A stretch of 54,309 nucleotides of DNA from a virus, in IMG/VR virus record IMGVR_UViG_3300005466_000011, positions 1 to 54,309 of that record. One strand, given 5' to 3'. The notes beneath the pieces were generated by a model, which worked only from the letters and a program-made list of their open reading frames with translations, did no database searches and was not told where the DNA came from. Shown here piece after piece: positions 2,845 to 33,500 of the stretch. The translations under genes and the position numbers were made by a program. Positions within the stretch are counted from its first letter, which is position 1. Each line of letters starts with the position of its first letter.

Positions 2845-4644
2845 ATGATCCTCTATGGATTAAGTTGGCCAGAAAATTACACCCGTTTGAACGCGGAAAT
2901 CGACATGATCCGCGCTGGCGGCAAGATTGAGCGCGGCGGCAAGAGCTACGGCGAGGGGCTCTTTCATCATTACCGGTGCATGTTCAATCTGCTCTGGCCA
3001 GAGGATGATCATCACCGTTGGAGTGATCTCTGTCTCAAGCGCAAGACTGAGCATGAGATCGTAATCATGATGGGCAGCGGCGACTCCAATAAAACTTACA
3101 TCAGTTCGAAATACGTCCTCTGCAATTGGTGGGTTTTGCCGTTCAATACCCTCTGGATCATTTCGAGCACAGAGTTGCGCGGCGCTGAGCTCCGGAATTG
3201 GGGCGCAATCAAAGGGCTCTTTAACCGTGCTCGAGAGCGGTTCCCCTGGCTGCCTGGAGTAGTCCTCGAGTCAAAGACGTGCATAACTCCGGACGTCATC
3301 TCAGAGGGCGGCGTCGCTGGGCGGCTTCTCACCAAGGGGATCATCTTTGTTCCCTGCAAAAAGGGCGGCCAATGGGTGGGCATGGGCGCGTACGCCGGAG
3401 TGAAGCCTCCCAAGGGCGGCCGCCTGGGCCATTTCGGGGATGAAGTCAGCTTCATGCATCCCAATTTCCTCAATGCTTACGCGAATTGGTACGGGAAAAA
3501 CTTTGAGGCGATTTTGGACGGCAACCCCACTGACCTTGACGATCCGTTGTGCACGGCCGCAAAACCGATCGGCGGCTGGGAGGCGTGGAAAGACAACGGC
3601 AAAACGCAGGAATGGTTAAGCACATTTTACAATGCTTGGGTGATCGCTTTGGACGGCCGCGACTCGCCCAACATGGATCAACCCAAGAACCTGCCGCCTC
3701 GTTACCCGTATCTCATTCACTGGAAAAAACATCAAGCAGTCCTCGCGTTGCATGGTCCAGACCATCCCCTCTACTGGCAGCAATGCGTAGGCAAGCCGCT
3801 CCCTGGCACAGAAAAATTCAGAATCATTCCCCACTCGCTGCCAGAGACAAGCGGCGCGTACGATCAGGTAGTTTGGGAGGGATCGGACATAACCGATATT
3901 GTCTCGCTGGATGCTGCTTACGGCGGCGAGGGCGGCGATCGCTGTATTCTCACGCACTTGCGTTTCGGTCGCGATATCGAGGGGCGTGACGTGATCGAGG
4001 TGAAAGCTCAGCCAACCGTCCCCGTCGCAGTTCAGACCGGAGGCGATCGAGTTGAAAAGCAGATCGCCAAATTCTGTAGATCCTATTGCGAGGGTTACAA
4101 GATCCCTCCCTCGAGCTTCTACTTCGACGGCCGGTCAACCCTGGCAGTCACCTTTGCTCAGGTGTGGTCTGCGGAAGTCAATGTGGTGGACTTCGGAGGG
4201 CCAGCAACCAAGCGGCCGGTTTCGCAGGATGAATTTGTTATCGATAAGGACACAGGCGAAAAGCGGCTCAAACGCTGCGATGAGCATTACTCCAAATTCG
4301 TTACGGAGCTTTGGTTTTCCATCTACTACCTGATGATCGGCCGGCAGATTCGCAACCTGCCAAAGGATTGCGCGACGGAGCTCCGGAGGCGGATCTGGCG
4401 TTTGGTTTCTAAGAGCCGAATTGAGGCAGAGACAAAGAAGGAAATGAAAGAGCGCCTCACGGAGAGCCCTGATATGGCCGATTCGCTGGTGACAGGTGTT
4501 GAGGGTGCGCGGCGGCAAGGTTTCCTGATCGCAATCCTCAAAGATGTAACGGCGCAAAAGCAGGAGGATGACGATTGGCTCGAACAAGAACTTGCTAAGC
4601 ATCGGGAATTTATGCAAAAGACTGAGCTCAAGTCGCGAACATGA
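2845..4644 (+). CDS. terL: Terminase large subunit
   Basis: This 599-residue protein packages DNA into the prohead by ATP-driven translocation and cuts concatemers. The N-terminal ATPase has a Walker A-like motif at 77-84 (GSGDSNKT), in which Asn82 replaces the usual Gly before Lys83, and a Walker B-like HFGDE ending D199-E200. The C-terminal RNase H-fold nuclease shows VSLDAAYGG (D356), D365, FYFDGRS (D428) and SPDMADS (D543/D546). The length is normal for TerL. There is no clear Shine-Dalgarno before ATG 2845, only an A-rich leader. No small terminase was recognised upstream. It is the first gene of the late rightward block. Confidence 0.92.
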   Translation: MILYGLSWPENYTRLNAEIDMIRAGGKIERGGKSYGEGLFHHYRCMFNLLWPEDDHHRWSDLCLKRKTEHEIVIMMGSGDSNKTYISSKYVLCNWWVLPFNTLWIISSTELRGAELRNWGAIKGLFNRARERFPWLPGVVLESKTCITPDVISEGGVAGRLLTKGIIFVPCKKGGQWVGMGAYAGVKPPKGGRLGHFGDEVSFMHPNFLNAYANWYGKNFEAILDGNPTDLDDPLCTAAKPIGGWEAWKDNGKTQEWLSTFYNAWVIALDGRDSPNMDQPKNLPPRYPYLIHWKKHQAVLALHGPDHPLYWQQCVGKPLPGTEKFRIIPHSLPETSGAYDQVVWEGSDITDIVSLDAAYGGEGGDRCILTHLRFGRDIEGRDVIEVKAQPTVPVAVQTGGDRVEKQIAKFCRSYCEGYKIPPSSFYFDGRSTLAVTFAQVWSAEVNVVDFGGPATKRPVSQDEFVIDKDTGEKRLKRCDEHYSKFVTELWFSIYYLMIGRQIRNLPKDCATELRRRIWRLVSKSRIEAETKKEMKERLTESPDMADSLVTGVEGARRQGFLIAILKDVTAQKQEDDDWLEQELAKHREFMQKTELKSRT

Positions 4645-4823
4645 AACCGCTCCCGCTCCCCAACTCAGTCCTCCCGGCAAAGCTTTACGTGATTCTGGAT
4701 GGCTCCGGTAAAGTGGTGGATGAGGTAACCGCGAGCAACTCCTGGCAGGCGCTGCAGACAGCCAGTGAGCGCGCCAAGGATCCAACCAAGTGCCGCACCG
4801 CAATCCTCAAACCCAAGCCCTAA
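4641..4823 (+). CDS. Small hypothetical protein, 60 aa
   Basis: The start overlaps the terminase stop (ATGA), indicating coupled translation. The protein contains AKLYVILDGSGKVVDEVTA, which looks like a small beta-rich unit, then a helix (SWQALQTASERA) and a basic tail. I do not recognise a family. The gene ends 1 base before the HNH-AP2 endonuclease start. Confidence 0.65.
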   Translation: MKPLPLPNSVLPAKLYVILDGSGKVVDEVTASNSWQALQTASERAKDPTKCRTAILKPKP

Positions 4824-4824
4824 A

Positions 4825-5307
4825 ATGAAACTTATCCCACTCACCCAAGGTGAATGCGCCATTGTCGATGATTGCGACTTCGAACAGCTAAACCGATGGA
4901 AGTGGTCCTGTATGTTTTGCGGTGGGCGGAGGTACGCTTACCGCGGAACTCGTAACCGGAGAGCCGGGACACAGACAACGATCCTTATGCATCGCCAGAT
5001 TCTGAATGCCCCCGATGGCGTCGAAGTTGATCACGTACACGGCGCGGGTCTGAATAATCGAAGAGGCAATTTGAGATTCGCTTCACACCAGCAAAATCTT
5101 TTCAATTCCAAGATCCGGACAACAAACAAATCAGGTTATTGCGGTGTGACGTTTGATAAGGATAGAGGAAAATGGTTTGCCTCAATCAGGATAAATGGAA
5201 AAACCAAAGGCTTAGGGAGATTTGAAACCCCTAAAGAGGCTGCCCTGGAATGGAATCGGGTTGCGCTTGAGAGCCGCGGGGAATTTGCGAGGCTGAATGT
5301 AATATGA
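4825..5307 (+). CDS. HNH homing endonuclease with AP2 DNA-binding domain
   Basis: The chosen start at 4825 gives 160 residues. The HNH core runs from about residue 55: LMHRQIL, then VEVDHVHGAGLNNRRGNLR and the NLFNSK end typical of HNH_3 nucleases. Residues about 110-150 form an AP2-like three-strand and helix domain (SGYCGVTFDKDRGKWFASI, then GRFETPKEAALEW). These enzymes cut DNA and spread by homing. It stands alone between late genes and overlaps the next gene by 4 bases. It marks the left edge of the accessory cassette. Confidence 0.9.
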   Translation: MKLIPLTQGECAIVDDCDFEQLNRWKWSCMFCGGRRYAYRGTRNRRAGTQTTILMHRQILNAPDGVEVDHVHGAGLNNRRGNLRFASHQQNLFNSKIRTTNKSGYCGVTFDKDRGKWFASIRINGKTKGLGRFETPKEAALEWNRVALESRGEFARLNVI

Positions 5308-5606
5308 GTGACTTTTCAAGAAGCGCGTTTCCGCCAGGAGGTTTCCAATTCTACCAGCCTGAGACGGGTTGGCGCGCTCCGACTCCGATCGCGAGCACAT
5401 TTACGCAGACTGTAGAGCTCATTATCAAGCATCGGCTCAAAAATCCCGCGATCGTCGCGCAGCACGGGCTCTCCCTGGATCCGGTTGCAGTGGGCAACGA
5501 GCTCGAGGCTTACAATCTCCAGCGCCTGGGGCTGAAATTACCTCCGGCGAGCCCATCGGCCGGACAAGTTGTCGTTCCCCTGGCAACCTCTTGCTGCGGT
5601 CACTGA
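5304..5606 (+). CDS. FPPGGFQFYQ-motif protein, short paralogue
   Basis: This 100-residue protein is a paralogue of the next gene. Both share FPPGGFQFYQ near the N-terminus, a conserved P-x-x-x-T-F step, II-x-HR-x-KNPA, H-x-LS-x-DP and VGNELE-x-x-N-x-x-RLG. This copy stops after the shared module (about residue 80) and ends in CCGH. The function is unknown. The start overlaps the HNH stop by 4 bases. The pair looks like a tandem duplication at the front of the sugar-modification cassette. Confidence 0.8.
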   Translation: MSDFSRSAFPPGGFQFYQPETGWRAPTPIASTFTQTVELIIKHRLKNPAIVAQHGLSLDPVAVGNELEAYNLQRLGLKLPPASPSAGQVVVPLATSCCGH

Positions 5607-5609
5607 TTT

Positions 5610-6290
5610 ATGAATGATACTTTTAGCCGCAATTCTTTCCCCCCGGGAGGGTTTCAGTTCTACCAGAGCCAGAGCAAATGGAGTGCGCCCAATCCCAAGG
5701 GCAATACTTTCGATCGGCAGGTGGCAGAGATTATCGAGCATCGGAAAAGAAATCCCGCGATGCTGATTCAGCACAAACTGTCCATTGATCCGGCCGTAGT
5801 GGGCAACGAGCTCGAGAGCTTCAACCGTGCGCGCCTGGGCATACCGGCGATCCGGCCGGCGCTTGAGCAGATCCCGCCTCCGGAAAGCTCCCCGCTCCTT
5901 TCGGTACCGGTACGCGACGCAATTTCAGCCGTGAAAAAGATTGCGGCTGGAGCGGCGCTGCTCATGGAATGGGAAGAGAGCGGCTTGCCTCCGGAGCCTG
6001 CTCCGGTTTCAGAAGCCAGGGCGGCAGTCTGCGCCGTCTGCCCCAAGAACGAAAAAGGCAAGAGTCTCACGGAGCTCTTCACGGTCCCGGCCGCAAACCG
6101 GATTCAAGAGAAGCTGAAGCGCTTGCATGAAATGGATCTCAAAACCTCTAAGGATGCTGAGCTAAACGTCTGCCAAGCCTGCCTTTGTCCCCTCAAGCTC
6201 AAGGTGCATACCCCTATGAGCCTGATCCAGAAACGCCTCAAACCGGAACAGCGCGCAGAGCTCGATCCCAAATGCTGGATCCTGGCGTGA
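5610..6290 (+). CDS. FPPGGFQFYQ-motif protein with C-terminal cysteine module
   Basis: This 226-residue protein has the same N-terminal module as its neighbour (about 1-78), a linker, then a C-terminal domain (about 135-226) with paired cysteines (VCAVCPKNE and NVCQACLCPLKLKVHTP), probably a metal site. I recall similar C-terminal modules in metagenomic phages next to glycosyltransferase-like genes, but no function is known. The gene overlaps the next by 4 or 19 bases depending on that start. An adaptor or carrier role for the cassette is speculation. Confidence 0.75.
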   Translation: MNDTFSRNSFPPGGFQFYQSQSKWSAPNPKGNTFDRQVAEIIEHRKRNPAMLIQHKLSIDPAVVGNELESFNRARLGIPAIRPALEQIPPPESSPLLSVPVRDAISAVKKIAAGAALLMEWEESGLPPEPAPVSEARAAVCAVCPKNEKGKSLTELFTVPAANRIQEKLKRLHEMDLKTSKDAELNVCQACLCPLKLKVHTPMSLIQKRLKPEQRAELDPKCWILA

Positions 6291-6991
6291 TCCATGTTGT
6301 TTATATCGCGGTTTCTGGCGGCCCTCTCACTCACGATTACTGCGCTCGCTTCGTTGGGAGTTACCTCGCCAATCCTCCCGGCGCGACTAACCGCGTAATT
6401 GTGGTCTGCAACGGCGGCGCGCTCCCGGTCGAAACGCAGATGCTTTTCCTCCCGCTCAATGCCACCTTTCTCCTCCGCAAAAACGATCCGTCCTGGGATA
6501 TCGGCGGTTATATGGATGCGGCGCTTCAGTTTCAGGGAAAGTTTCTCTTTTGCTGCGGCGAGACGGTTTACTTCCATCGCGAGGGCTGGCTTGCTAGGAT
6601 GGCTGAGGCTTGGGAGAAATACGGCAACGGTATGTATGGCTCTTTCTCGAGCAACCTTGTCCGGACGCACCTCAACACAACAGCGTTTGCCTGCGATTCC
6701 GCCTCGCTGCTCAGTTACCCGCGGCCGATGAGTCGCGCCGATCGCTACAATTTCGAGCACGGCTCAGATGCGCTCTGGCTCCGACTTCATAAGCACGGCA
6801 AACCGGTTAAGCTGGTGACGTGGAACGGAGTTTGGGAGCCGGTTCACTGGCGTTTGCCCATGGATATCATGTGGCGCGGCAATCAGAGCAACTGCCTGAG
6901 CTTCTGCTCGCATACCGATCGCTATCGCGCAGCCACTCCGACAATTCAACGTCAATGGTCTGCCTGGGCAGATGGTCCTTACCGCTTATGA
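6272..6991 (+). CDS. Glycosyltransferase-like protein 1 (RgpF-type features)
   Basis: The start is ATG 6272; GTG 6287 is an alternative that overlaps the previous stop as GTGA. The protein of about 239 residues opens with a Rossmann-like strand (VIHVVYIAVSG) and has VIVVCNGG, the DIGGYMDA motif (compare DIGG/DIGP of rhamnan-synthesis F-like proteins) and GETVYFHREGWLARMAEAW. It aligns by eye with the next gene over its length. It probably belongs to a glycosyltransferase A-like family acting on a nucleotide sugar. It lacks a signal peptide, so it would act in the cytoplasm. Confidence 0.7.
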   Translation: MLDPGVIHVVYIAVSGGPLTHDYCARFVGSYLANPPGATNRVIVVCNGGALPVETQMLFLPLNATFLLRKNDPSWDIGGYMDAALQFQGKFLFCCGETVYFHREGWLARMAEAWEKYGNGMYGSFSSNLVRTHLNTTAFACDSASLLSYPRPMSRADRYNFEHGSDALWLRLHKHGKPVKLVTWNGVWEPVHWRLPMDIMWRGNQSNCLSFCSHTDRYRAATPTIQRQWSAWADGPYRL

Positions 6992-7671
6992 GAATCGCAG
7001 TCGTTTACATTTTCCCCGTTTTCGATGGGGCGTTTTTCGATAACGCCTGCCGGTTCATCGCCACTTACAACGAGAATCCGGCCGGGATGGAGCACCAGCT
7101 TATTTTTGTTTCCAACGGTGGCAAGCCAACGCTCGAGATGCGCGGCTTGGCGGAGTCCTGCGCGCATCCGGTTGAATGGTTCGAGCACGATAACAGCGGC
7201 ATGGACATTGGCGGGTTCCAGGCGGCCGCTCGAGCGATCCCCTGTGAAATGATGCTCTTTTTGGGAAACAGCGCGTACCTGCGCCGGCCGCAGTGGCTCT
7301 CGAGGATGGCTGAGGTTTTTCACAAATACGGGAGCGCGGCGATCTACGGCAGCACGGCGAATTGCGGCGACTCCCGGGTAAATGTGTTTCCCCATCTTCG
7401 GACCACGGGCTTTTGGATGGCTCCGATGATCATGAACATGTACCCATTCAAGGTTACGCGGCCGGAGCAACGCTACCCTGCAGAGCACGGAGCCAACTGT
7501 ATTACGGAATGGGCCAGGGCTCAGGGTTACCCCGCAATCATGGCTACCTGGGAGGCTGAGTCAGAGTGGCCAAATTGGGATGGGATGCCGGGAGGATTTC
7601 ACCGCGAACAGCAACAAGGGCTTTTAGTGGGTGACCGTCTTACAGCGCCTCCCTACTATCCCCATCCGTGA
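6988..7671 (+). CDS. Glycosyltransferase-like protein 2 (RgpF-type features)
   Basis: The start is ATG 6988, overlapping the previous stop (ATGA); 227 residues. It is a paralogue of the preceding protein. Shared blocks are the N-terminal strand (RIAVVYIFPVF), FVSNGG, NSGMDIGGFQAA, GNSAYLRRPQWLSRMAEVF and KYGSAAIYGS. The second half differs more, as expected if acceptors differ. The stop overlaps the start of the next gene (GTGA). The enzyme class is inferred from motif layout only. Confidence 0.7.
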   Translation: MRIAVVYIFPVFDGAFFDNACRFIATYNENPAGMEHQLIFVSNGGKPTLEMRGLAESCAHPVEWFEHDNSGMDIGGFQAAARAIPCEMMLFLGNSAYLRRPQWLSRMAEVFHKYGSAAIYGSTANCGDSRVNVFPHLRTTGFWMAPMIMNMYPFKVTRPEQRYPAEHGANCITEWARAQGYPAIMATWEAESEWPNWDGMPGGFHREQQQGLLVGDRLTAPPYYPHP

Positions 7672-7892
7672 AAATCTTCACAGGGAAATCAGTGCCGCCA
7701 GAGCTCAAAGATTTTTCCGGCCCGATTTGCTTTGATCCGGCTTGCTTCCGCAGAGAGACGCACTTTGTTCGGGAATGGGGATGCCGTTGGAACGATAGGG
7801 CGATCATAAACAAGAGCGGGACAGTTACCATTTTCAAAGATCAACACGGTAGGGCACTGGATCCGATTAAAACGGAGCCCTATTACACATGA
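7668..7892 (+). CDS. Small hypothetical protein in sugar cassette, 74 aa
   Basis: The GTG start at 7668 overlaps the preceding stop, and its own stop overlaps the next ATG, so it is locked into the operon. The protein has a basic middle, two cysteines near residues 22-26 (CFDPACF) and a third at about 39, and a final beta-like stretch (KSGTVTIFKDQHG). No family is recognised. Confidence 0.65.
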   Translation: MKIFTGKSVPPELKDFSGPICFDPACFRRETHFVREWGCRWNDRAIINKSGTVTIFKDQHGRALDPIKTEPYYT

Positions 7893-8575
7893 AGATCGCA
7901 ATTTTTTACCATACCCTTTTCTACCTGGGCACGCCTCCGACACTGCGGCCGATGGCAGTCGATATCATTGCGGAGCAGGTAACCGAAATGGAGCGAACCG
8001 GACTTATCGCCGCGGCCGATGAGCTCTTTGTCGGAGTCAACGGAGGCGAGGAGAGCGAGGACATTGCAAAAATGCTCCTGCCTTCGAAAGCGAAGCTCTC
8101 TTTTCACGGGCTCAAGTCGCGAGCCGAAAACCTAACGATCGTCATGCTCGAGCGCTGGGCCAAAGCAAACCCGCATTGGGCGATTCTGTATCTTCACGCC
8201 AAAGGGAGCAGCCATGAGCACGGGAGCCCTTACGGCCAAAACGTCTCGGGCCCCTGGCGGCGCGCCATGATGTTCGACTTGGTAACCAACTGGCGCGCCT
8301 GCGTCGCGGACCTTGAAGCGGGAGCGGAAATGGTCTGCTCACACTTCATGCGCAATATGGCCGATGGCAGTCAGCACATACCGGCCGGCAATTTCCTGTG
8401 GACTACTTCGAACTTTGTTCGCACTCTCCCGTCCATCTTCATGCGTGAACGGATCAAAGTCTCAGGTATCGATGCTCTCGAAAGCAGATTCGAGGCTGAG
8501 GTTTACTGGGGCAACGGTCCAAGGCTGCCGATGGTGAAGGAGTGGCGGCCCAATGGCGGAGGCGGCTGTCCGTAA
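7889..8575 (+). CDS. Glycosyltransferase-like protein 3
   Basis: This 228-residue protein starts MKIAIFYHTLFYLG. It has FVGVNGG (about 47-53), AILYLHAKGSSHEHG (about 98-112), then GPWRRAMM and IPAGNFLWTTSNFVRTLPS (about 164-182). The YLHxKG, WR-x-x-M and GNFLW-x-x-x-x-x-x-x-LP blocks recur in a family of GT-A-like proteins found in bacterial polysaccharide loci and some viruses. It is only distantly like the two upstream GT-like proteins. It probably transfers a sugar; donor and acceptor are unknown. The radical SAM gene follows with a 1-base overlap. Confidence 0.7.
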   Translation: MKIAIFYHTLFYLGTPPTLRPMAVDIIAEQVTEMERTGLIAAADELFVGVNGGEESEDIAKMLLPSKAKLSFHGLKSRAENLTIVMLERWAKANPHWAILYLHAKGSSHEHGSPYGQNVSGPWRRAMMFDLVTNWRACVADLEAGAEMVCSHFMRNMADGSQHIPAGNFLWTTSNFVRTLPSIFMRERIKVSGIDALESRFEAEVYWGNGPRLPMVKEWRPNGGGGCP

Positions 8576-9642
8576 TGAGTCCAGAGCTCGAGGCGGCTTA
8601 CGCAGAGGCGGCTCTGCCGTTCATTGACGGCGCGATCACAAAGGAAATAATCGGGTTGCGCTCCTGGCGGTATTTCCTCGAGGTAAACTCCGCGTGTAAC
8701 CTCAAATGCCCCACTTGCACCAAGGGCAATAAAGCTGGGTACGAGCATCAGACCGGGATCATGGATCCGGAACTGATGGGCAAGATTATCGACAAGATCG
8801 CCAGCGAAAATCCCAAAGCGATCGTTTTTCTCTACGGCAATTCGGAGCCCTTTTTGCATCCTCGTTTGCCGGAATGCATCGCGGCCGTCAAAGCTCGAGG
8901 ACTGCGCTGCGAGCTCTCCACAAATCTCAACTACGTCCACCGCCTGGATGAGACTCTGGCCGCCAAGCCTGATTTCATGATCGTCTCGCTCTCCGGTTTC
9001 ACGCAGGAGATTTACGAGAAAGGGCACGCTGGCGGGGATATCGAAAAGGTTAAGGCGAACATGAAGGTGTTGGGCACATTCAACCAGTTAGCCAATCCGA
9101 AAATAAAAATCGCCGTCAATTTCCATCTTTATAAAGACAATCGTGGAGAGGATCAGCTTGGGCTTATGCGAGCCTATGCTCAAGACTGCGGGTTCGAGCT
9201 TTTCGTTAGCACAGCCAGAGCTATTTCGATGGAAAATGCCGTACAGTACTGCAGGGAAAACGATAGCGAAGCTACCCCTTTTGAATTGCAGCGTGGCCAA
9301 CCGGATTGGAATGCCATCCTGCCGCCCACTTCGAATCAATGGCGGGAAACCATGGCGAGACTCACTATTCCGCCGACTGAATCGAGGGGTATGTATTCGC
9401 ATCATCCGGTTTCCGAGGTGTGCCCCGTTGGCGCGGGTGGGCTCTTCACCTTTATCCGCCATGACGGGAAAACGGAGCTTTGTGCGTGCGTCGCAGATCG
9501 AAGGATCACCCTCAAAAACTACTTAGATGCGACGCCCGATGAATTGATCCAGCAACGTCAAGGGCATCCAATTTGTAAGCAGTGCACGCGCTATCGACTC
9601 AATCTTTATTTCATGATTGCAGATCGGGATCGCTGGGATTGA
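8575..9642 (+). CDS. Radical SAM enzyme with SPASM-like C-terminal cysteines
   Basis: This 355-residue protein starts at ATG 8575 (TAATG overlap). CNLKCPTC (C41, C45, C48) is the canonical CxxxCxxC site for the 4Fe-4S cluster that cleaves S-adenosylmethionine. It is followed by the expected barrel elements (FLYGNSEPFLHP, then ELSTNL). The C-terminal region has more cysteines (CPVGAGG, then CACVADR and ICKQC), like a SPASM or twitch auxiliary-cluster domain. Family members modify peptides, sugars or cofactors. Here the neighbours point to a sugar or glycan intermediate, but a peptide substrate cannot be excluded. Confidence 0.9.
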   Translation: MSPELEAAYAEAALPFIDGAITKEIIGLRSWRYFLEVNSACNLKCPTCTKGNKAGYEHQTGIMDPELMGKIIDKIASENPKAIVFLYGNSEPFLHPRLPECIAAVKARGLRCELSTNLNYVHRLDETLAAKPDFMIVSLSGFTQEIYEKGHAGGDIEKVKANMKVLGTFNQLANPKIKIAVNFHLYKDNRGEDQLGLMRAYAQDCGFELFVSTARAISMENAVQYCRENDSEATPFELQRGQPDWNAILPPTSNQWRETMARLTIPPTESRGMYSHHPVSEVCPVGAGGLFTFIRHDGKTELCACVADRRITLKNYLDATPDELIQQRQGHPICKQCTRYRLNLYFMIADRDRWD

Positions 9643-9781
9643 TCTTGTGAGCACTCCCCGGCATAATGGCTCTGGCCTTGATACGGCTGCAAAAAGCGCG
9701 AAAAAGCAAACTTTACAACTCGCTCCGAGACTGCGGCCATCGTGCGCCGGTATCACTTTCTTGGGGCGAGTTGATTTTGCT

Positions 9782-10273
9782 ATGGAAGAATGGAAACCGA
9801 TCGACGGCCATGAGGGCTACGAAGTAAGCAGCCTTGGGAGAGTGCGTAGCCGGGAGCGAGTGATCCCCGCTAAGATTCTCAAGCTTCAGACCACGGATGA
9901 GGGCTACGTCCGGGTACATTTGAGCGGAAAAAACCGAGCAGTTGCCTCCGTTCACGCATTAGTACTGACGGCATTCAAAGGGCCACGCCCGCCGCGCAAA
10001 GTCGCTCGCCACCTCAATAGTGTAAGGAATCATAATACGGTTGAAAATTTGGAGTGGGGGACTCAAAAGGAAAACATCGCTGACCGAATTGCCAACGGAA
10101 CGTACTACCAAGGACAAAATCATCCGAACTCAAAACTTACAGACCTTGACGTTAAAACAATCCGGGGATTAGCGGAGGCTGGACTGACAAAGGTAGCCAT
10201 AGCCAGAAAGTTTTGCCAAAGTCCGGCCAACATAGGTCACATCGTTAATCGGAAATCATGGACGCACATCTAA
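9782..10273 (+). CDS. NUMOD4/HNH homing endonuclease
   Basis: The start ATG 9782 gives 163 residues. The N-terminus EEWKPIDGHEGYEVSSLGRV is a NUMOD4 module. It is followed by an HNH core (VHALVLTAFKGP, RHLNSVRNHNTVENLEWG, then KENIADR) and a C-terminal helix-turn-helix-like tail (about 120-160) with KLTDLDVKTIRGLAEAG. The metal-motif His is present in VHALV, and LNSVRNHNTVENL gives the N/H part. It interrupts an otherwise tightly packed operon, with 139 bp of unassigned sequence before it, which fits a mobile insertion. Confidence 0.88.
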   Translation: MEEWKPIDGHEGYEVSSLGRVRSRERVIPAKILKLQTTDEGYVRVHLSGKNRAVASVHALVLTAFKGPRPPRKVARHLNSVRNHNTVENLEWGTQKENIADRIANGTYYQGQNHPNSKLTDLDVKTIRGLAEAGLTKVAIARKFCQSPANIGHIVNRKSWTHI

Positions 10274-10893
10274 TGATGAAAACCTTGGATGAGATCGCGA
10301 TCAGGCACGGCACGGACAAAGCCACGCAGTTTACGCGCACTCATGCCCAACCCAAGGGCTATACCGTTCATTATGAGAAATTCTTCACGCCGCTCCGGCA
10401 CACTCCGGTCAAGCTGGTTGAGATTGGAGTTGGCGGAGGCGAATCAGTTCGCACTTGGCTGGATTATTTTGATGCCGCTTGGGTGATCGGGATCGACAAT
10501 GTTAGCGGTACCAACGAGTGGAACACTCCAAAGCAGTTCGGGGCAGGTATGGAGCAGTTCGATCGGTACGGGTTCATGGCCGCGGACCAAACGGATCCGG
10601 TTTTTTGGGCGTGCTTCACGGCTGACGTTAAGCAAACCGTCGATATCGCGATCGACGATGGCTCACATGAGCCCAAAGCGGTTCAAGTATCGTTTGCCGG
10701 TTTGTGGCCACTGATTAAGCCGGGAGGGCTCTACTGTATTGAGGATTTGGGGTGCGGGTTTACGAGCCCTGGCTGCCAAACTCATTGGGAGTGGCTGGCG
10801 ACCTACCTCGCTCCTCTAATGACCGGAGGGCTTGCCGATCTCGATTCGATTTACGTTGCCCCTCAACTCGCAATAATCCGAAAGAAAGGCTAG
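10273..10893 (+). CDS. SAM-dependent O-methyltransferase-like protein
   Basis: This protein has about 206 residues from ATG 10273 (TAATG overlap with the HNH stop); ATG 10276 and 10258 are alternatives. TLDEIAIRHGTDKAT at the N-terminus and VKLVEIGVGGGESVRTWLD (motif I), followed by VIGIDN and IDDGSHEPKAV, resemble macrolide-sugar O-methyltransferases of the MycE/demethylmacrocin type and cephalosporin-hydroxylase-like proteins. These use a Rossmann fold and often a metal ion. It probably methylates a sugar hydroxyl, together with the C-methyltransferase next to it. Confidence 0.8.
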   Translation: MMKTLDEIAIRHGTDKATQFTRTHAQPKGYTVHYEKFFTPLRHTPVKLVEIGVGGGESVRTWLDYFDAAWVIGIDNVSGTNEWNTPKQFGAGMEQFDRYGFMAADQTDPVFWACFTADVKQTVDIAIDDGSHEPKAVQVSFAGLWPLIKPGGLYCIEDLGCGFTSPGCQTHWEWLATYLAPLMTGGLADLDSIYVAPQLAIIRKKG

Positions 10894-10897
10894 AACC

Positions 10898-12205
10898 GTG
10901 TACACCATTCACAATCGCTGCCGCGCCTGCAACTTTGGCCCTCCTATTCTCCCTGGCGGAACAAAAGCCGGAGCCAACTCCGATCGCCTGCTCCCTGCTT
11001 TCAGCCTGGGGGTTCAGCCGCTCGCTAACGACTTCTGCGCAGACGGCGAGGAGCGAGCCGGTTTTGCGCCGCTCGAGATTCTCCTCTGCCCTCAATGCGG
11101 TTTGGCGCAGTTGAGCGTAGTTGTCGACCCGGGGATCCTTTACGCCAAGGATTATCCCTACGTAACCAGCAAGAGCGACACGATGCGCCAACATTTTGAG
11201 CTCTTGTGGTCTGACTGCAGTGCGCAAGCCTCCTGCAAAACCGTCCTCGAGATTGGCAGCAATGACGGCGACTTTTTGAATTACTGCCGCAGCCACGGCG
11301 CAGAAGCTGTGATCGGTATCGAGCCGGCCGCCAATCTGGCGCAGGCAGCCGAAAAGCAGGGCATCCGGACGATCCGCGATTTCTTCAACCCTGTCTCAGC
11401 CGCGATGGCGAGCCAAGCCATGCCCAAAGTGGGGATGATCTTTGCCCGTCACGTCTTTTGCCACGTACCAGACTGGCAAGCCTTCATGGCTAACTTGCAA
11501 CTCCTGGCTGGGCCCGAGACTCTGATTTGTATCGAGGTGCCTTACGTGATGGATCAACTCAAGGCGATCAGCTTTGACCAGATTTATCATGAGCATTGCA
11601 GCTATCTCTCCATCCGTGCGATCAAAGCCCTGCTCAACGGCGGCCCGTTCTGCCTCAAGGATCTCAAGCACTACACGATTCACGGCGGCGCGATTCTGCT
11701 CATGATTCAGCGCCGTAGCCCTGAGATAAAGGCCAGTCCAACGGTCCTCGAGTACCTTGACGCGGAGAGCGCCACTCAAAAAAGCTGGCAGGAATTTGCG
11801 GAGAAAAGCTCCGACGCGATCGAGAAGCTCAAAGGCTTGATCCGGCAACTGCGCAAAGAAGGGAAGCGCGTTGTGGGCTTTGGTGCCTCCGCCAAGAGTA
11901 CCGTTTGGATTAACGCCATGGGGCTTACTCGCGCCGATCTGTCCTGCGTCTACGATTGCACTCCCTCAAAGTGGTATCGGTACATTCCCGGCACGGATAT
12001 CCCGATCGTCAACCAGGGCGGCTTTTACGTCGACGATCCGGAGTATGCCGTCATTTTCGCTTGGAACTTCGCGGAGGAGATCATGGACAAGAACCGGAAA
12101 TGGATGGAAGGCGGCGGCTCGTTCATTGTCCCCATCCCTGAGGCGAAAATCTATCGCGCTGAGACGTCTTTCAAGCCTTACGATGCGCCAGTTGCTGCCG
12201 GTTAA
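10898..12205 (+). CDS. Sugar C-methyltransferase-like protein (NovU/TylCIII type)
   Basis: The GTG start at 10898 has GAAAGG upstream; 435 residues. The N-terminal zinc-binding part (CRACN at about 8-12 and CPQCGLAQ at about 64-71) is the Methyltransf_13 type. A central SAM domain has VLEIGSNDGDFLN, GIEPAANLAQAAE and DQIYHEHCSYLS. The C-terminal domain has VVGFGASAKSTVWIN and PSKWYRYIPGTDIPI. This three-part layout is that of C-methyltransferases acting on dTDP-4-keto-6-deoxysugars. It strongly supports a sugar-modification role for the cassette. A gap of 41 bp follows before the portal gene. Confidence 0.88.
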   Translation: MYTIHNRCRACNFGPPILPGGTKAGANSDRLLPAFSLGVQPLANDFCADGEERAGFAPLEILLCPQCGLAQLSVVVDPGILYAKDYPYVTSKSDTMRQHFELLWSDCSAQASCKTVLEIGSNDGDFLNYCRSHGAEAVIGIEPAANLAQAAEKQGIRTIRDFFNPVSAAMASQAMPKVGMIFARHVFCHVPDWQAFMANLQLLAGPETLICIEVPYVMDQLKAISFDQIYHEHCSYLSIRAIKALLNGGPFCLKDLKHYTIHGGAILLMIQRRSPEIKASPTVLEYLDAESATQKSWQEFAEKSSDAIEKLKGLIRQLRKEGKRVVGFGASAKSTVWINAMGLTRADLSCVYDCTPSKWYRYIPGTDIPIVNQGGFYVDDPEYAVIFAWNFAEEIMDKNRKWMEGGGSFIVPIPEAKIYRAETSFKPYDAPVAAG

Positions 12206-12246: not shown

Positions 12247-14601
12247 ATGAGCACCGCGAAAGAAGTAACGGATCGTTGGGATAACGCCTCCCTCGTAAAT
12301 CAGCAAGTTTGGGATTGGCGCTTAGCCGATCTGCCTCGCGGAGAAAATCGCACCATTCTGGATCGCCTTTACAACGGGGATCCGCCCTTCGATGAGGCGC
12401 TCGCGGAAGAGAATCAGGTAGAGATCAACCGCAATAACCTCGAGGGCCCTAACCTCCTGGGCAACGCTCGCCGGCAGTGGAACTCCGCAATGCTCAAGTC
12501 TGGTAATTTCTTCAATATCGCCGTTCACCGCGGAGCACGTAACATGAGGCGTGAGTATGGGCACACCATCACCAAGCACCTCAATCGAGTGCTGCGCAAA
12601 AGTATGCCTTATAAAGAGCAGCGGCGGCAGACCGGCGCGGCCGTCATGCTCCATGGCATCGGGCCCACACATTGGGACACTCGCCGCGGAATGGTGCCTG
12701 ATGTAGTGCCGATCTCGAGCGTGCTGGTACCGAGTGAAACGCTGGTATCCGGCGCGAACATCGATCGCTTTGCCATTTTCCGAGAGTACACCCCCGCTCA
12801 GCTTTACACCCTCACGCACGGCCCAAAAAAGGATCCTGGCTGGCAGATGGCAACGGTTATGAGCCAATGGGAGTACGTGCGCCAGATGACGCAGAAACAG
12901 CCAAACGCCACGGCTTACCAGTACATGCCGGAGCGGATCGAGGAGCTCGCCAAGCAGGATTTGGGATTTTGGGGCTCTGATGCTGTGCCTACGATCGATT
13001 GCTGGGATTTTTACTTTCGCGGCGATCGGGATACGGACGGTTGGTACCGGCGGATCATCCTCGATTGGGGAGTTACTCAGGAAAATTACAAGCAGTACCC
13101 TGCAGGCGGCAAACCTCCGGAAAAACCGGACAATAGCAGCTTTCTTTACACCTCCGGCGATCGGCGCTTTGCCAACTCGCTCAACGAGATCATTCACTTC
13201 AACTTTGGCGACTGCTCCGCGGTTACGCCGTTTCGGTACCATTCAGTTCGCTCCCTGGGCTGGATGCTTTGGGGTGTGTGCGACCTTGAAAACCGGTTGC
13301 ACTGCAAATTCAATGAGGCAATTTTTGAACAACTCCTCTGGTTCTTCCGAGTCGCCGGCAATGCCGATATGACGCGCATCAAAAAGGCGTTGTTCAATCA
13401 CATGGGCGTAATCCCTGCAGGTGTCGCCATGGTCAAGAACGATGAGCGCTACAAGCCTGATGCCGCCCTGATCGAGATGGCTTTCAATCGCAATCAATCT
13501 GCAATGCAGCGCTTTTCCTCGAGCTTCACGCAGGACGGAGGCAAAAACGAAAAGGAGATGACGGCAACTGAAACCATGGCCAGGGTCAACACCGTCAATC
13601 AGCTTGTCTCAGGCATGATGCAACTGGCTTACGAATACGAGGAGGCTAAGGATTACGAGATTTGTCGGCGCGCCTGTATCCGCACGCTCCCCGATCCCAT
13701 GGCGAAAGCTTTTCAGCGCGCCTGCCTCGAGGATGGGGTACCGGAAGAGATTTTAGATTCTGAATGCTGGGAGCTCACGGAAGAGCGCACGCTTGGGTCT
13801 GGAAACAAGCAAATCGAAATGGCTCAGGTTCAGTTCCTGCAGCAACTCCGGCCGAAACTCGGGCCCGATGCGCAGCGCAAAGTTGATCACATTTCGATTG
13901 AGTCCGCCCTGGATGATGCCGCGATCGCTGAGGATCTGGCTCCGCTCGAGGGACAAACCAAAGTCAGCAGTTCGATGCATGACGCGATGCTCTCCACTGA
14001 GCGGCTCATGCGGGGGCTCATATTTGTGCCGTCTCCGGATATGGTCTATGAGGACTATGTGAAAGTCTGGTTAGCGGACCTTACACAAATGGTTCAAGGG
14101 GCTGTGGAATCCGGAGGGATGGCATCTCTGGCCGATATCATTGGATGGCAGACCATGGATCGCACGATTGAGTCTTTCCTTCAGATCATGGACTCCGACG
14201 AAGAGCAGGCTGACAAGGTGCGCGGTTACCGGCAGCAACTGGCGCAGCAAATGAACGAGGTAAAAGCCTTTGTTCAGCGACTGCAGCAACAGATGAAGGC
14301 GCAACAGGCTAACGGAGCCAATGGCAACGGCGAGGCGCAAGCTGCAGTGGCGGCAGAGCAGGCTAAAACCATGGCGGAGATCGAGGCTAACCAAGCCCTG
14401 GCGGCGCAGAAGCTCAAAAACGCTGAGGCGAGCCATGCTCAAAAGACGGCGCAAAGGCAGGTTCAGTTTGAGATGGATCAGCAGCGCGAAGATCGCCGGA
14501 CTAACGCTGAGATCCGCCGAAAAGCCGATCAACACGCCCTCGATATCACAGCCGGCCGAATCAAAACGCTTGATCAGGCGACGGAAGAGGAGCAAGCATA
14601 A
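12247..14601 (+). CDS. Portal protein (P22-like)
   Basis: This 784-residue protein forms the dodecameric ring at the capsid vertex through which DNA enters and leaves. The size (P22 portal is 725 residues), an early segment QVEINRNNLEGPNLLGNARR and the position between terminase and scaffold support the call. The last 150 residues are Gln/Ala/Glu-rich and helical (repeated QQ and AE-rich stretches), like the barrel of P22-type portals. The start is ATG 12247; TGA of a 13-codon frame starting at 12204 directly precedes it. The assignment rests on context and general pattern, not on a single diagnostic motif. Confidence 0.8.
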   Translation: MSTAKEVTDRWDNASLVNQQVWDWRLADLPRGENRTILDRLYNGDPPFDEALAEENQVEINRNNLEGPNLLGNARRQWNSAMLKSGNFFNIAVHRGARNMRREYGHTITKHLNRVLRKSMPYKEQRRQTGAAVMLHGIGPTHWDTRRGMVPDVVPISSVLVPSETLVSGANIDRFAIFREYTPAQLYTLTHGPKKDPGWQMATVMSQWEYVRQMTQKQPNATAYQYMPERIEELAKQDLGFWGSDAVPTIDCWDFYFRGDRDTDGWYRRIILDWGVTQENYKQYPAGGKPPEKPDNSSFLYTSGDRRFANSLNEIIHFNFGDCSAVTPFRYHSVRSLGWMLWGVCDLENRLHCKFNEAIFEQLLWFFRVAGNADMTRIKKALFNHMGVIPAGVAMVKNDERYKPDAALIEMAFNRNQSAMQRFSSSFTQDGGKNEKEMTATETMARVNTVNQLVSGMMQLAYEYEEAKDYEICRRACIRTLPDPMAKAFQRACLEDGVPEEILDSECWELTEERTLGSGNKQIEMAQVQFLQQLRPKLGPDAQRKVDHISIESALDDAAIAEDLAPLEGQTKVSSSMHDAMLSTERLMRGLIFVPSPDMVYEDYVKVWLADLTQMVQGAVESGGMASLADIIGWQTMDRTIESFLQIMDSDEEQADKVRGYRQQLAQQMNEVKAFVQRLQQQMKAQQANGANGNGEAQAAVAAEQAKTMAEIEANQALAAQKLKNAEASHAQKTAQRQVQFEMDQQREDRRTNAEIRRKADQHALDITAGRIKTLDQATEEEQA

Positions 14602-17246: not shown

Positions 17247-18794
17247 ATGGCACTTAGTTGCAAGCAGTTCACGGATTACCTGAGCCGGAAATCCGAACAC
17301 CTTGACGATAACATTATCCTTTCGATGCACCCGATCGACACTTGGATCGGGCACGTTTCGATCGGCCGCTTTGCGGCAGAGGATGGCGTTGAACACACTT
17401 TCGATCGTTTCGAGAATGTTTTCCCTGATCTCCGCGGAGCCTGGGAGGACGTTTCAGCCGGCAGTTGCATTGGCCAGCCTTGCGACCCGTCGACCACAAA
17501 GATCGGCTTGGGCTTCACCCGAGACAGCTACAAGCTGCAGCGCAAGTCCTACGAAACCGATCTCTTCTGTTTCGACCAGATTCTTTCCGCCGATCGCGCC
17601 AAGCAACAGTTTGCCCACGTTATCAGGGTTAACCGGCGCGCCTCTTCGCTGATCACCTCGCACCGGTTCCGGACGGAGGCGATTCGCATCGCCAAATACA
17701 AATGGGCGACGGCCAACAATACGCTGGTTCCCATTACCGCGACCTGGGACAGCACTATGACCTTTTTGACGGTTTCCACCTTGCCCACCAGCAAGATCAC
17801 CGCACGCCACCTGCAACGGCGCGTGCAGCCTCAGATCCGCGAAGGCGCGCTCTCTGAGGATATCAATCGTTCCGTTCAACCCATGCTCGAGTTTGTAACC
17901 GATATGGATGAAGTCTGGAACATGGTTGAGGGCAACCCCGAGCTCACGGACCATTGGCGCTTCACGGACTTTGCCGACGCTGAGAAGTATCACAAATACG
18001 GCTGGGTTGGGAAGCTGGGCAACTATGGTTTGCGCGCTGATTGGACTTCGCTCCGGTTCAACGTGTATTCGCAGAATGCGGACGGTACTACGACCCTGCA
18101 GATCGTCTACCCGTACACCAATGTGTCAGCCACGGAAGGCATCAAAGAAGTTGTGAATAACGACTACGATAACGCCTATATCCAAGTCGACTTCATTTGG
18201 CACCGCAAAGCGATGACGTCCATGGTGCAGGACACCACGTCGATCAATCCGGAGATGCCTTTCGCCATGCGCGACTTTGCCGGCAAGTGGCAATTCGTGA
18301 TGGATAACCTCACCTGCGGTACGGACGTAAACGGCAACCCGATCGCCGTGAACAACGAGCGCCGCAACAAGGGTAAATTCATCGCTGATTGGCGCTTTGC
18401 CACTCAGGCGGAATACCCTGAGCTCGCAGAAGCATTTTTTCACCTGCGCGAGCCGGCTTGCGTTGTGGACGTGCCCACCTGCAGCAGCGGCTCATACCCT
18501 GCGCAGAGCTACTCGAGCGCAAACGCTACCTGCCCCTCGAGCTCTACGGTCCTCACCTTTACGCCAGTGGCCAGCGGCTCCGGCGACTACGATATTCCGC
18601 AGGACTCGATCCTGTGCAACGGGTTGAACATCTTCAATCCGCGCATCTACGGCGTAAGCACCCTGGCGCTGCTCGTTGCCTCGCTAAACACCAATCTCTC
18701 AGCAATGGGAACTTGGGCTGTCGCCAGCGCGACTACGATCACCCTCACCGGGGCGGTTTGCACCTCCGTCAATATCCCCTGGACGGTTGACTAA
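17247..18794 (+). CDS. Major capsid protein (candidate)
   Basis: This 515-residue protein lies after scaffold and co-chaperonin genes, has its own 200-bp leader and is followed by two strong hairpins, all typical of the capsid gene. It is rich in aromatic residues and short strands. A central FRTEAIRIAKYKWATANN helix and a later QVDFIWHRKAMTSMVQDTTS segment resemble capsid shell domains in feel only. The last 100 residues are Ser/Thr/Cys-rich and look like an added surface domain (after CVVDVPTCSSG at about 407). The call rests mostly on gene order. Confidence 0.7.
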   Translation: MALSCKQFTDYLSRKSEHLDDNIILSMHPIDTWIGHVSIGRFAAEDGVEHTFDRFENVFPDLRGAWEDVSAGSCIGQPCDPSTTKIGLGFTRDSYKLQRKSYETDLFCFDQILSADRAKQQFAHVIRVNRRASSLITSHRFRTEAIRIAKYKWATANNTLVPITATWDSTMTFLTVSTLPTSKITARHLQRRVQPQIREGALSEDINRSVQPMLEFVTDMDEVWNMVEGNPELTDHWRFTDFADAEKYHKYGWVGKLGNYGLRADWTSLRFNVYSQNADGTTTLQIVYPYTNVSATEGIKEVVNNDYDNAYIQVDFIWHRKAMTSMVQDTTSINPEMPFAMRDFAGKWQFVMDNLTCGTDVNGNPIAVNNERRNKGKFIADWRFATQAEYPELAEAFFHLREPACVVDVPTCSSGSYPAQSYSSANATCPSSSTVLTFTPVASGSGDYDIPQDSILCNGLNIFNPRIYGVSTLALLVASLNTNLSAMGTWAVASATTITLTGAVCTSVNIPWTVD

Positions 18795-29674: not shown

Positions 29675-30508
29675 ATGGACGAAGAAAACGAGCAGGATTT
29701 ACCCGATTACTCTCCGGAGGAGGGTCAAGATGAACGAGAGCCGGCGATGTTGCCCACGTCTGCTCCCGCCCCCGCGGCTGCTCAACTAAGCGCGCCTGTC
29801 ATAGCGCGAGCGGCCGCCCCTTCTCCGATTGCCCCCAATGGCGCTGGCACTGCTGTGTACTCCCCCGAGCAGCAGGCCAGCGCCGCTTTTTGGCGCAAGA
29901 TGAATTATGAGTTGCAGGGGCAACCCCTGGCAGAGGCTGAGCAAGCGCTTTCGGCCGCACTCAAGTTTCAGGCGATCCGCGGATATCAAAAGGATTTGGA
30001 AAACGGCAAGAGCCCTGGCGAGGCGCTCTCCCGATGGGCTCCAATGATGTTCACGGCTCCCAAGTCCTCAAACCTGGGCAACGCAGCATCGATGGTGCGC
30101 GCTACCCGTGCGCCTGCGCCCATGGTCCGGACGGCCGGAGGACAGATTTTTCAGATTCCGCCAGGAGGTGGCGCAGCAACGGCCCTGACTCCGGCTCCGG
30201 TTCGCCCTCCCCGCACGGATCCTTTCGCGCTCAAAGCTTTTGAGCTCAAGCTCAAGCAGATTGAGAAGCTGCAAGGGGATCTCGAGGTAGAACCGGCCGG
30301 CAAAGGGCGCGAGGATATTTTGAAGAGAATCGATGTAGCTCAGCGCGAGGCAGACGCTCTCCGCCCAAGCCCTGTAGCTACGGCTCCAACTGCTCCGGCC
30401 GCTCCTGCAGGCGGAGGGAATGAAGTGTTACGGTTGACAAAGAGCGGCCGAAAGGCTGTCTTTGACTCCGCAACAAAGAAATTCCTCCGTTATGCCGATA
30501 CAAGATGA
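29675..30508 (+). CDS. Ala/Pro-rich virion-type protein, 277 aa
   Basis: ATG 29675 has GGAGG 9 bases upstream. The first 65 residues are acidic then Ala/Pro-rich. Residues about 65-125 form a folded helical part (EQQASAAFWRKMNYELQGQP, then AALKFQAIRGYQKDLENG). The rest is Pro/Ala linker with one charged helix (FALKAFELKLKQIEKLQGDL). The C-terminus (LRLTKSGRKAVFDSATKKFL) overlaps the start of the giant gene by 17 bases. An internal virion role is likely. Confidence 0.55.
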   Translation: MDEENEQDLPDYSPEEGQDEREPAMLPTSAPAPAAAQLSAPVIARAAAPSPIAPNGAGTAVYSPEQQASAAFWRKMNYELQGQPLAEAEQALSAALKFQAIRGYQKDLENGKSPGEALSRWAPMMFTAPKSSNLGNAASMVRATRAPAPMVRTAGGQIFQIPPGGGAATALTPAPVRPPRTDPFALKAFELKLKQIEKLQGDLEVEPAGKGREDILKRIDVAQREADALRPSPVATAPTAPAAPAGGGNEVLRLTKSGRKAVFDSATKKFLRYADTR

Positions 30509-33500
30509 AGCGCCGCCAACCTGGGAAAACTCTCAAGAGCTAGCCGATGACAGTGCGCCTCCTTCATGGGAGGACACCTCTGAATACGTAGAGCCCTCCT
30601 CTGAGCCCATCCGGCCGCAACGGGTTCGCTCCGCCATAAACCAGACGATTCAAGCGGTTTATCGGCCGCTCGATCTGCTCACAAATCCCGCCGTAGTCGC
30701 CGGTTCACAGATGGGCCAGGAGCGCGCCAAGCGAGCCAGGGAGGCGCAGATGGGTGTAGTTGCTCCCGGCTCTTTCTTCCCTGTGCCTCAGCCGCTCGCG
30801 GAGCCCACTCCGGAGGACAGAGCGGCAGGCTCTGAGCTTGTCCGATCGATTACTTCCGTGCCTGGGCGAGTACTGGCAGCCGGAGCTCGCACCGTGCGCG
30901 ACGTGCTTAGCCCCTCAACTTACCTGCCGGAGGATATGAAAGCGCCTCCGCCTTTTGTGATCAACACTCGAGGCGAGCAGCCGGAGCTCCGCCAGATGAC
31001 GCGAGCGGAAGAGGCAACGCGGGATCCCCTGCAGGGCCCTCGAGCGCTGATCCCGGTTCGAGGCACGCAGCTTGAGCCGGAGGGGAGCGAAGGCGCACAA
31101 CTGCTCTCAGGACTGAGCACGCCGGACAATATCGGAATCATCGCGGCCGGAGGTGCAAGCAAGATTGCCGGCATGGCGCTGCTCTTCAGTATGGCCCCCG
31201 GCATCTATGAGGACGTGAAGCGGATCGCCTCGAGCGATGTTCCCCTCGAGCAGAAACGCCAATCGATCAACAATTTGCTGATCCCTCTTGTCCTGGGAGC
31301 AAAAGGCGCTTACGAGCGGCCGATCCCTGAGACTCCTCAACTTGTGGGCCCTCCCGCCATGGGTTCGACGTTGCGCACCCCTGGCGGGTTCTATCCGGAA
31401 GGACGATCGGCTGAGCTTGTTGGCCCTCCGGTAACGGATCGATTTCGACGGCCGGAAGTCCCTGGCACGCCGGCCGAAACCCGGATGACGGCCAAAGAAG
31501 AGGTGCGCGCCGCCAATGCTCGCACCAAAGCAGAGATCAAGGCGCTCTTCCCGCAACTCACCAACGAGCAGGCGCGAGATCTGGCGATTCAAGTTTGGGG
31601 TACAGCCGGGGATTTTGGCGTTGTCGTTTCTCCGACCATCCCGCGGCCGGAGCCCATCGCTGATCGTCCTGAGATTGTGCGGCCGCCAGGAGCGCCGCCG
31701 CCGTCTGATTTCGAAGTTGAGCAGGCAGCGCGCATAGCAGAAGAGCAGCGAGTAGCTCAGCAGCGCCGCGATTACATCGATCAGATGGTGATCACGCAGC
31801 AACGGGAGCTCGATAAAGCTCTCGAGGCTGGGGATAAGATTGCGGAGCGCAATGCGGCTCAGAGGCTGATGGAGTTAAAGCGCGCACGCGATTTCCCGCC
31901 AGCGCCGGCAAAGGGCCCCATTGTGCCTAAACCGCCGTTGCCTAATCTCCCTCGAGGAACATTTAGGCCGGAGGTTCCTGGCACGGCAGCGGAGCCCTAT
32001 GAGACTGTGCTTGCGACTATACGAAAGGCCGGAGCCAGGACTCGAAAGCAGATTCAAGCGCTATTCCCTGAGCGGCGCTTGAAAAACGAGGAGGCTGCCG
32101 ATCTCCGTGATGCTGCTTGGGGTGCACAACCTCAGCCAGAGCCTCCGGCTGCAGCGCCTGAGCCCACGGCTGCCGCTCCCAAATGGGAGGAAACAACTGA
32201 GCCGCCAAAGGGTGGCGAGGAGCCTCTGCCACCGGAAGAGCCAACGGGTACAACTGTGCCCAAGCCTCCGACTCCGCCAACGCCTGCCGGAGAGGGCGCT
32301 GTAAAAAGTGTGCCCACGCCTCCGGCTGACGTCGATTACACCGATCTCGAGCAGGCAAACAAACTCAGCGGCCAGGAATTGGTTGATCTGGTTCGCAGCA
32401 AAGGCTCCGGAATAACAGAGGCATCCTATGAGTTGGGCGCAAAGCTCACTCCGGAAACCAGGGCCAAAGCGCGCCAGTACGAAGAGGCTGCCAATGCCGA
32501 AACAATGGCTGTGCTCCAAGAGGCTCAGAAACTGGCACCTCGCAGCCTCGAGCGGCTCAAAGCTTCTGAGGGAGCTTTCGCTATGCAGCAAAAGAAGCAG
32601 CTTTTCAATGAGGCTGGCCGGTTCTATGACGCAATACAGGACGTCAAGAACGGCAAGGATCTGGCGCAGGCTGCAGTTGAGCATGGAGTAAAGGAAACGG
32701 ACCTGCGCAGGGTGGCAGAAGCGGCTCCGGCTGAGGCGGCCGCGACGCTCACACCCAAGCCAGGAATGACGCGCCTTTATCACGGTGAAGGAGCCGCGGA
32801 GGGCGCTGGCGCTGGCGGAGGTTGGTTTACGGAGAATCCGGAGTACGCGGCGCAGTTTGGAAAAGTTACTTTTGTCGACGTGCCTAAAGAGGTTGCCGAC
32901 GCGGCGCGCCAAGCAGCACGAAATACCGGTACTGGCGGCCCTCATTTCATCCTCCCCGATGAATACGTAAAGCAGGCTCAGCCAATGGCGACGCAGCCAG
33001 GGCCCAAGACGTTTGACGTTACTCCGGAAGAGCCTCCCAAGCCGGAAACTCCAGCCGCTCCGGCTGGCCCTGATCCGCTCGATAAGGTTACGCTCGCCAT
33101 GCTGCCCCTAAAGCAGTGGATGAAGGTAACCAAAACCGATCAGCTTCCAACGGGTTACGAGTTTACGATGATGGCAAAGCGCCTGGGAGTGAAGCGCGAT
33201 CGCAAAGCTGTCCTCGAGGCACTCCACAACGAGAAACGCCTGCGCGAAATCTTCAAGCCTTTCGAGCAACCCAAGACGGCCGCTACGGCTGAAGCTCCAA
33301 CGCCAGCGCCTGCCGCTCTGGCCGGCAAAACCCTGAAAGGCACCTACCTGAGGGACTTTCCGGAGGGTACCAAAATCCAGCGCGGAAACGAGACGCTCAC
33401 GATCATCAAGCAGAAGAAAAATTCAACGATGGTTGGCACGGCCGGAGATCCGACTGGTTATGAGATGAGTTGGAGCGCTGATGGTGGCAACTGGGAAAAA

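Follow-up and report, generated by a model that had tools for sequence, protein, structure and literature searches.

A putative glycan-assembly cassette at a fixed locus of exchangeable content between the terminase and presumed portal genes of uncultivated soil phages

The virus record IMGVR_UViG_3300005466_000011 of IMG/VR (54,309 bases, analysed whole and hereafter called the window, in whose coordinates all positions are given) has an island of predicted sugar-active genes between the genes for its large terminase subunit (TerL) and its presumed portal. We read this block as a cassette, presumably expressed late, for the assembly of glycans that would decorate virion proteins with methylated, possibly branched sugars, and assign this reading a probability of roughly 55%. 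The block consists of DF1, DF2, GT-A, GT-B, a 74-aa open reading frame (ORF), GT-C, rSAM, MT24 and CMT, all on the + strand, with two HNH genes interspersed (Table 1). A preliminary description of this DNA had named three glycosyltransferase (GT)-like proteins, a radical SAM enzyme, an O-methyltransferase, a sugar C-methyltransferase and a duplicated pair, and all of these are present on the + strand where it placed them, with start codons now corrected for rSAM (ATG 8575), HNH2 (ATG 9782) and MT24 (ATG 10273). Its view of a late phage-borne sugar or glycan modification cassette is well supported, while the fixed yet exchangeable island across the phage group, DF as its marker and the two HNH inserts are points beyond that description.

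Table 1. Features of the TerL-to-portal island of the window and its flanks.
Feature	Position	Strand	Assignment	Basis
TerL	2845..4644	+	Large terminase subunit, left flank of island	Profile-profile match to epsilon15 TerL
60-aa ORF	4641..4823	+	Role unassigned, 4-base overlap with TerL	
HNH1	4825..5307	+	HNH-AP2 homing endonuclease gene, interspersed mobile element	PF00847 E=2.5e-5, PF13392 E=4e-5
DF1	5304..5606	+	Partial DF2 duplicate without Cys-rich domain	53% identity to DF2 over 90 aa
DF2	5610..6290	+	Conserved marker protein of phage group, putative metal-binding domain	Six invariant Cys (CxxC..CxxCxC..C)
GT-A	6287..6991	+	Glycosyltransferase-like, paralogue of GT-B	33% identity to GT-B, common family alignment
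GT-B	6988..7671	+	Predicted glycosyltransferase, GT-A fold	AlphaFold and Foldseek
74-aa ORF	7668..7892	+	Role unassigned, variable in relatives	
GT-C	7889..8575	+	Predicted GT-A-superfamily nucleotide-sugar enzyme	AlphaFold and Foldseek
rSAM	8575..9642	+	Radical SAM enzyme, CxxxCxxC and further conserved C-terminal cysteines	PF04055 E=1.9e-8
HNH2	9782..10273	+	NUMOD4-HNH homing endonuclease gene, between rSAM and MT24	PF07463 E=1e-14
MT24	10273..10893	+	MycE/TylE-like sugar O-methyltransferase	PF13578 E=6.5e-7, profile to MycE
CMT	10898..12205	+	TylC3/TcaB9-type sugar 3-C-methyltransferase	PF08421, PF13489 and PF08484
Portal	12247..14601	+	Presumed portal, right flank of island	Gene order, size, conservation
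MCP	17247..18794	+	Presumed major capsid protein, candidate acceptor	Order, size, conservation

CMT has the full set of Methyltransf_13 zinc-binding, SAM and Methyltransf_14 domains (PF08484 E=8.8e-38) and matches D-mycarose 3-C-methyltransferase with E-values of 8.8e-104 by profile and 4.3e-69 by single sequence. Alignment to TylC3 shows that YPY, RHVF-H and YHEH are kept; YHEH and the histidine upstream of it presumably have the active-site roles which they have in TcaB9. The match to the TylC3/TcaB9/NovU enzymes is full-length and includes the conserved zinc-binding cysteines, but CMT is phage-borne, lies in a packaging region and has no adjoining NDP-deoxysugar (nucleoside diphosphate-deoxysugar) pathway in the window. 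The profile of MT24 matches MycE (2.8e-30) and the TylE-type structure 8ia9 (7.2e-24). Its residues D129/D130, H133, E158 and D159 are invariant, and the DDGSH and ED motifs, presumably metal-binding or catalytic, align with those of MycE and are invariant in 10 relatives except at the S position. The likeness is to the catalytic domain only, as MT24 is half as long as MycE and lacks its N-terminal region, the match covering MycE residues 192-333 of 419.

The radical SAM enzyme has, besides the CxxxCxxC motif, five more cysteines that are invariant in its family alignment. Against solved structures its profile matches DesII (1.5e-5) and GDGT-MAS (1.7e-5) equally well, and because of this the assignment is secure at the superfamily level only.

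GT-A, GT-B and GT-C have no Pfam match themselves, while four of their relatives match Glycos_transf_2, the best with an E-value of 7.2e-5. The AlphaFold model of GT-B (pLDDT 95.0) retrieves SpsA (5.4e-7), the fucosyltransferase WrtF (1.4e-6) and GlfT2 in Foldseek, as well as viral RgpF/GT2-like proteins. For GT-C (pLDDT 91.7), the IspD/KdsB nucleotidylyltransferases lead the list, and GtrB, ArnC and the Chlorella virus hyaluronan synthase are included in the first 50 matches. The TM-scores of these fold matches are 0.4-0.6, so they hold at the superfamily level only. The GT-like proteins had been put forward as transferases subject to structure prediction and profile searches, and it is GT-A-superfamily folds that these returned; from its model, GT-C is most likely a glycosyltransferase. 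Relatives of GT-C at 25-32% identity are also found in unrelated freshwater phages (L113-L149), the family being wider than the phage group described here.

The successive gene spacings from DF2 through rSAM are -4, -4, -4, -4 and -1 bases, followed further on by -1 between HNH2 and MT24, +4 between MT24 and CMT and +41 between CMT and the portal. The tight 1-4 base overlaps of the preliminary description are therefore correct for DF2 through rSAM and for HNH2/MT24, but not throughout, since a 139-base gap precedes HNH2 and the two HNH genes interrupt the block. Both HNH genes are best seen, on their domains and distribution, as inserted homing endonuclease genes. HNH1 has a GC content at third codon positions of 0.50, compared with 0.62-0.72 in the neighbouring cassette and flank genes. 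HNH2 is missing at the rSAM-MT24 position in the close relatives L096 and L088, which places it outside the cassette as an insert, and on this ground the HNH genes were rejected as cassette members.

The DF proteins open the island. Across 36 diverse members, the invariant residues of DF are R137, C141, C144, N147, C188, C191, C193, C222 and W223, and searches found nothing in Pfam above threshold, nothing in the PDB and only marginal PHROG matches. DF1 is limited to the close relatives of the window. On nearly every sufficiently long contig with DF, the TerL or portal of the group accompanies it. We regard DF as a new family of conserved proteins whose link to the glycan process can be put to the test; that it might serve there as adaptor or acceptor is a guess.

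Close relatives retain the whole set with its order, and the cassette is syntenic in many contigs; the gene-neighbourhood survey thus bears out the proposal that related phages carry the set as a unit. The ratio of nonsynonymous to synonymous substitution rates (dN/dS) is ~0.04-0.20 for all measurable cassette gene pairs with the sole exception of GT-C against relative L100 (0.35), two pairs being saturated at synonymous sites. Such ratios indicate purifying selection on every gene of the set, and chance or mis-called ORFs were rejected on synteny and dN/dS together.

The extent of the locus was surveyed with a scan seeded on the portal alone, from which the 80 best relatives were taken; counts come from the 48 non-redundant genomes where DF and portal share a strand. 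In all 48, DF is upstream of the portal, at a median spacing of 5.0 kb (range 1.9-9.7 kb). The window's own families are variably represented between them, with GT-A/B in 32 genomes, GT-C in 31, MT24 in 18, rSAM in 16 and CMT in 13, while 14 genomes have none; the full set is present in only four (the window, L098, L100 and L150). A further 117 island ORFs include members of Methyltransf_24 (9), Glyco_tranf_2_4 (8), Glycos_transf_2 (6), FkbM (4), RmlD (3), CmcI (3), TylF (2, best 2.6e-52) and GT9 (2). Among the 14 genomes that lack the window's families, seven have a different family of GT, methyltransferase or GT-associated type, counting in DUF5672 and DUF6492, which we take to be GT families. 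HNH families are common in these other islands and DNA methylases occur in some. In contrast, no GT, sugar-methyltransferase or NDP-sugar family turned up among the 97 control ORFs downstream of the portal in the same genomes. An independent scan with DF as its seed gave the same picture. Judged from these neighbourhoods, the arrangement of DF, sugar genes and portal is a fixed locus of the whole uncultivated soil phage group, with contents that are exchangeable. The largest unassigned island family (L175:2896-4422 and 11 relatives) consists of proteins of ~480-508 aa that start with VIPFHxGD, are GT-like by eye and have no Pfam match.

Exchange also reaches single genes. Between the window and L005, the synonymous distance dS is 0.16 for GT-A, 1.29 for GT-C and 0.52 for CMT; since it differs so strongly between adjoining genes of one phage pair, single cassette genes must have been exchanged by recombination. 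Correlation of protein identity with portal identity gave rho values of 0.41 for DF, 0.77 for CMT (few loci), 0.18-0.20 for the GTs and 0.05-0.06 for rSAM and MT24. DF and CMT thus follow the backbone and the GTs do so weakly. That rSAM and MT24 do not follow it shows that parts of the cassette are exchanged at a site that stays fixed.

Methyltransferases of sugar-nucleotide and glycoside type stand here with several soluble GTs among packaging genes, and the genome has no thymidylate-synthase homologue; on these grounds we favour the assembly of a short methylated glycan. The host would supply NDP-(deoxy)sugars, which rSAM and the TylC3-type CMT would alter, the substrate of the latter being probably an NDP-4-keto sugar. 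The paralogues GT-A and GT-B, together with GT-C, would then attach sugars one after another to a protein of the head or tail, and MT24, as a MycE-type enzyme, may cap or modify one of these sugars. No transmembrane segment is predicted in the cassette proteins, which fits enzymes whose targets are soluble virion proteins.

The best precedent is the cassette of the Corndog-type mycobacteriophages, whose capsid and tail-tube proteins are reported to be glycosylated by these enzymes in a statement of PMC11600133 that cites Freeman et al. 2023. The order in these phages is terminase, HNH, portal, O-methyltransferase, three GTs, protease and major capsid protein (MCP), with 4-8 base overlaps (Idergollasper ON260829 genes 33-36, cluster O). 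Both systems thus have an O-methyltransferase of the TylF/PF13578 class and three GTs, overlapping, in a head module beside the portal and with an adjoining HNH gene. However, the Corndog-type cassette follows the portal while that of the window lies between TerL and portal, and the former has no radical SAM enzyme, C-methyltransferase or DF and belongs to another phage group and host. An hmmsearch for homology between the GTs of the two gave no match, which makes them alike in working but not the same family. Chlorovirus PBCV-1 also builds its capsid glycans with virus-encoded GTs (PMC7019647), but this virus infects eukaryotic algae and its gene set is unrelated.

Several points weigh against decoration of the virion. 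The lack of sequence homology to the Corndog GTs is one, and another is that the best fold matches of GT-C are nucleotidylyltransferases. There is no invariant DXD metal motif in the GT-A/GT-B or GT-C family alignments, which weakens the case for GT activity; metal-independent glycosyltransferases of the GT-A fold do exist. We infer the identities of the portal and of the capsid protein that is the candidate acceptor, as sequence and profile searches gave no confirming match for either. Lastly, soluble GTs are also able to act on host surface glycans, and those of pelagimyophages have been read in this way (PMC7029224). The preliminary description had left virion, DNA and host surface as candidates for what the product decorates; the evidence now favours the virion and makes DNA unlikely, but the host surface is still a real rival. 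A late change of the host's lipopolysaccharide (LPS) O-chain or exopolysaccharide (EPS), which would keep off superinfecting phages or keep progeny off debris and infected neighbours, is clearly the less probable of the two, though to be taken seriously. LPS/EPS loci typically have the GT2, GT9 (heptosyltransferase), FkbM, RmlD and CmcI families that occur in other islands of the group, and rapid turnover would fit co-evolution with a host surface. The pelagimyophage hypervariable region so interpreted is likewise variable, GT-rich and from an uncultivated phage group, but it lies with tail fibres in T4-like myophages and is read as O-chain modification, whereas the island here is flanked by packaging genes and has a conserved marker protein. 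Against action on the host stand the lack of membrane-bound GtrA/GtrB-like components or transmembrane segments in the cassette and its placement with packaging and head genes as in the Corndog-type phages, where the reported target is the virion.

Hypermodification of the phage DNA, in which the GTs would glycosylate a modified base and the sugar would be completed by rSAM and the methyltransferases, is improbable. Glycosylation of DNA by virus-encoded GTs is known, and the DNA methylases in some other islands would suit such a role, but the search for thymidylate synthase came back empty for the terminally redundant genome although its controls worked, and no base-modifying gene was found among the scanned ORFs. 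A search for Tet/JBP was also empty, as was its control, so it is uninformative. Moreover, CMT and MT24 resemble methyltransferases of free NDP-sugars and glycosides, and the cassette sits with packaging rather than replication genes. Lower still we place the view that the set is a mere passenger, a cluster of sugar genes of host origin without a fixed phage role, brought in by HNH elements. The two HNH genes inside the block and the abundance of HNH families in other islands would agree with it, but it is already disfavoured by dN/dS of ~0.04-0.35 in every measurable gene pair, by the conserved gene order and by the presence of GTs at this site in 32 of the 48 non-redundant genomes.

The idea of a virion-glycan cassette is already known, and the earlier statement that no described system has this gene set needs correction for the O-methyltransferase and three GTs of the Corndog-type head module. 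It stands for the C-methyltransferase and rSAM content, which, like the DF family and the fixed, exchangeable locus in an uncultivated group, was not found described in the open-access papers searched. To our knowledge, glycosylated virions have been demonstrated for few phages, most of which infect mycobacteria. If virion decoration is correct, a widespread soil phage group would make virion glycosylation a general strategy, with many natural variants for comparison. Sugars that are both branched and methylated would add a surface chemistry new to phages, and the enzymes might be of use as rare-sugar tools. A more far-reaching and quite tentative picture is that of a phage group with a dedicated surface-glycan locus at one DF-marked address, its parts swapped as in an antigen-variation locus, its virions coated with macrolide-type C- and O-methylated sugars new to phages and DF acting as adaptor or acceptor.

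The window probably represents a complete, terminally redundant genome, as its ends (1-104 and 54206-54309) share an exact direct repeat of 104 bases. This terminal repeat is present although the IMG/VR class of the record is linear. The + strand carries all genes from 2845 on. TerL matches that of epsilon15 with a profile-profile probability of 96.5% over 357 columns, and in a profile ranking of 40 reference proteins the top five are all known TerLs. The presumed MCP is strongly conserved within the phage group. A tblastn search for isolate relatives gave no match for TerL or MCP in 50,697 phage records, while among 84,980 species genomes one has an MCP relative, on a 7.4-kb contig (L218, JAQGOT010000011.1) binned in a Pedosphaera metagenome-assembled genome; none of the others among the 388 genomes of that phylum has a match. 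This is a weak hint of a Verrucomicrobiota host, with a binning error being possible, and no host is claimed.

Elsewhere in the window, the late region has a giant ORF of 2328 aa (30462-37448), possibly an internal virion protein, with no Pfam match for the first 1656 aa, which were those searched. To the left of TerL, two genes on the - strand (473-1042 and 1494-2498) encode a polymerase-beta thumb domain protein (PF14791, 1.5e-11) and, adjoining it, a protein that is DHH-phosphoesterase-like by eye. Many relatives, but not the window, have a gene of ~431 aa right after the portal (L098:9440-10735 and L100:12400-13695), which has no Pfam match. In two relatives (L095:3470-4378 and L094:565-1473), TerL is split after residue 200 by ~0.9 kb. 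A group I intron was rejected here as Rfam gave no match, and the insert of L095 has a 208-aa ORF with the look, by eye, of an EDxHD/Vsr-like homing endonuclease.

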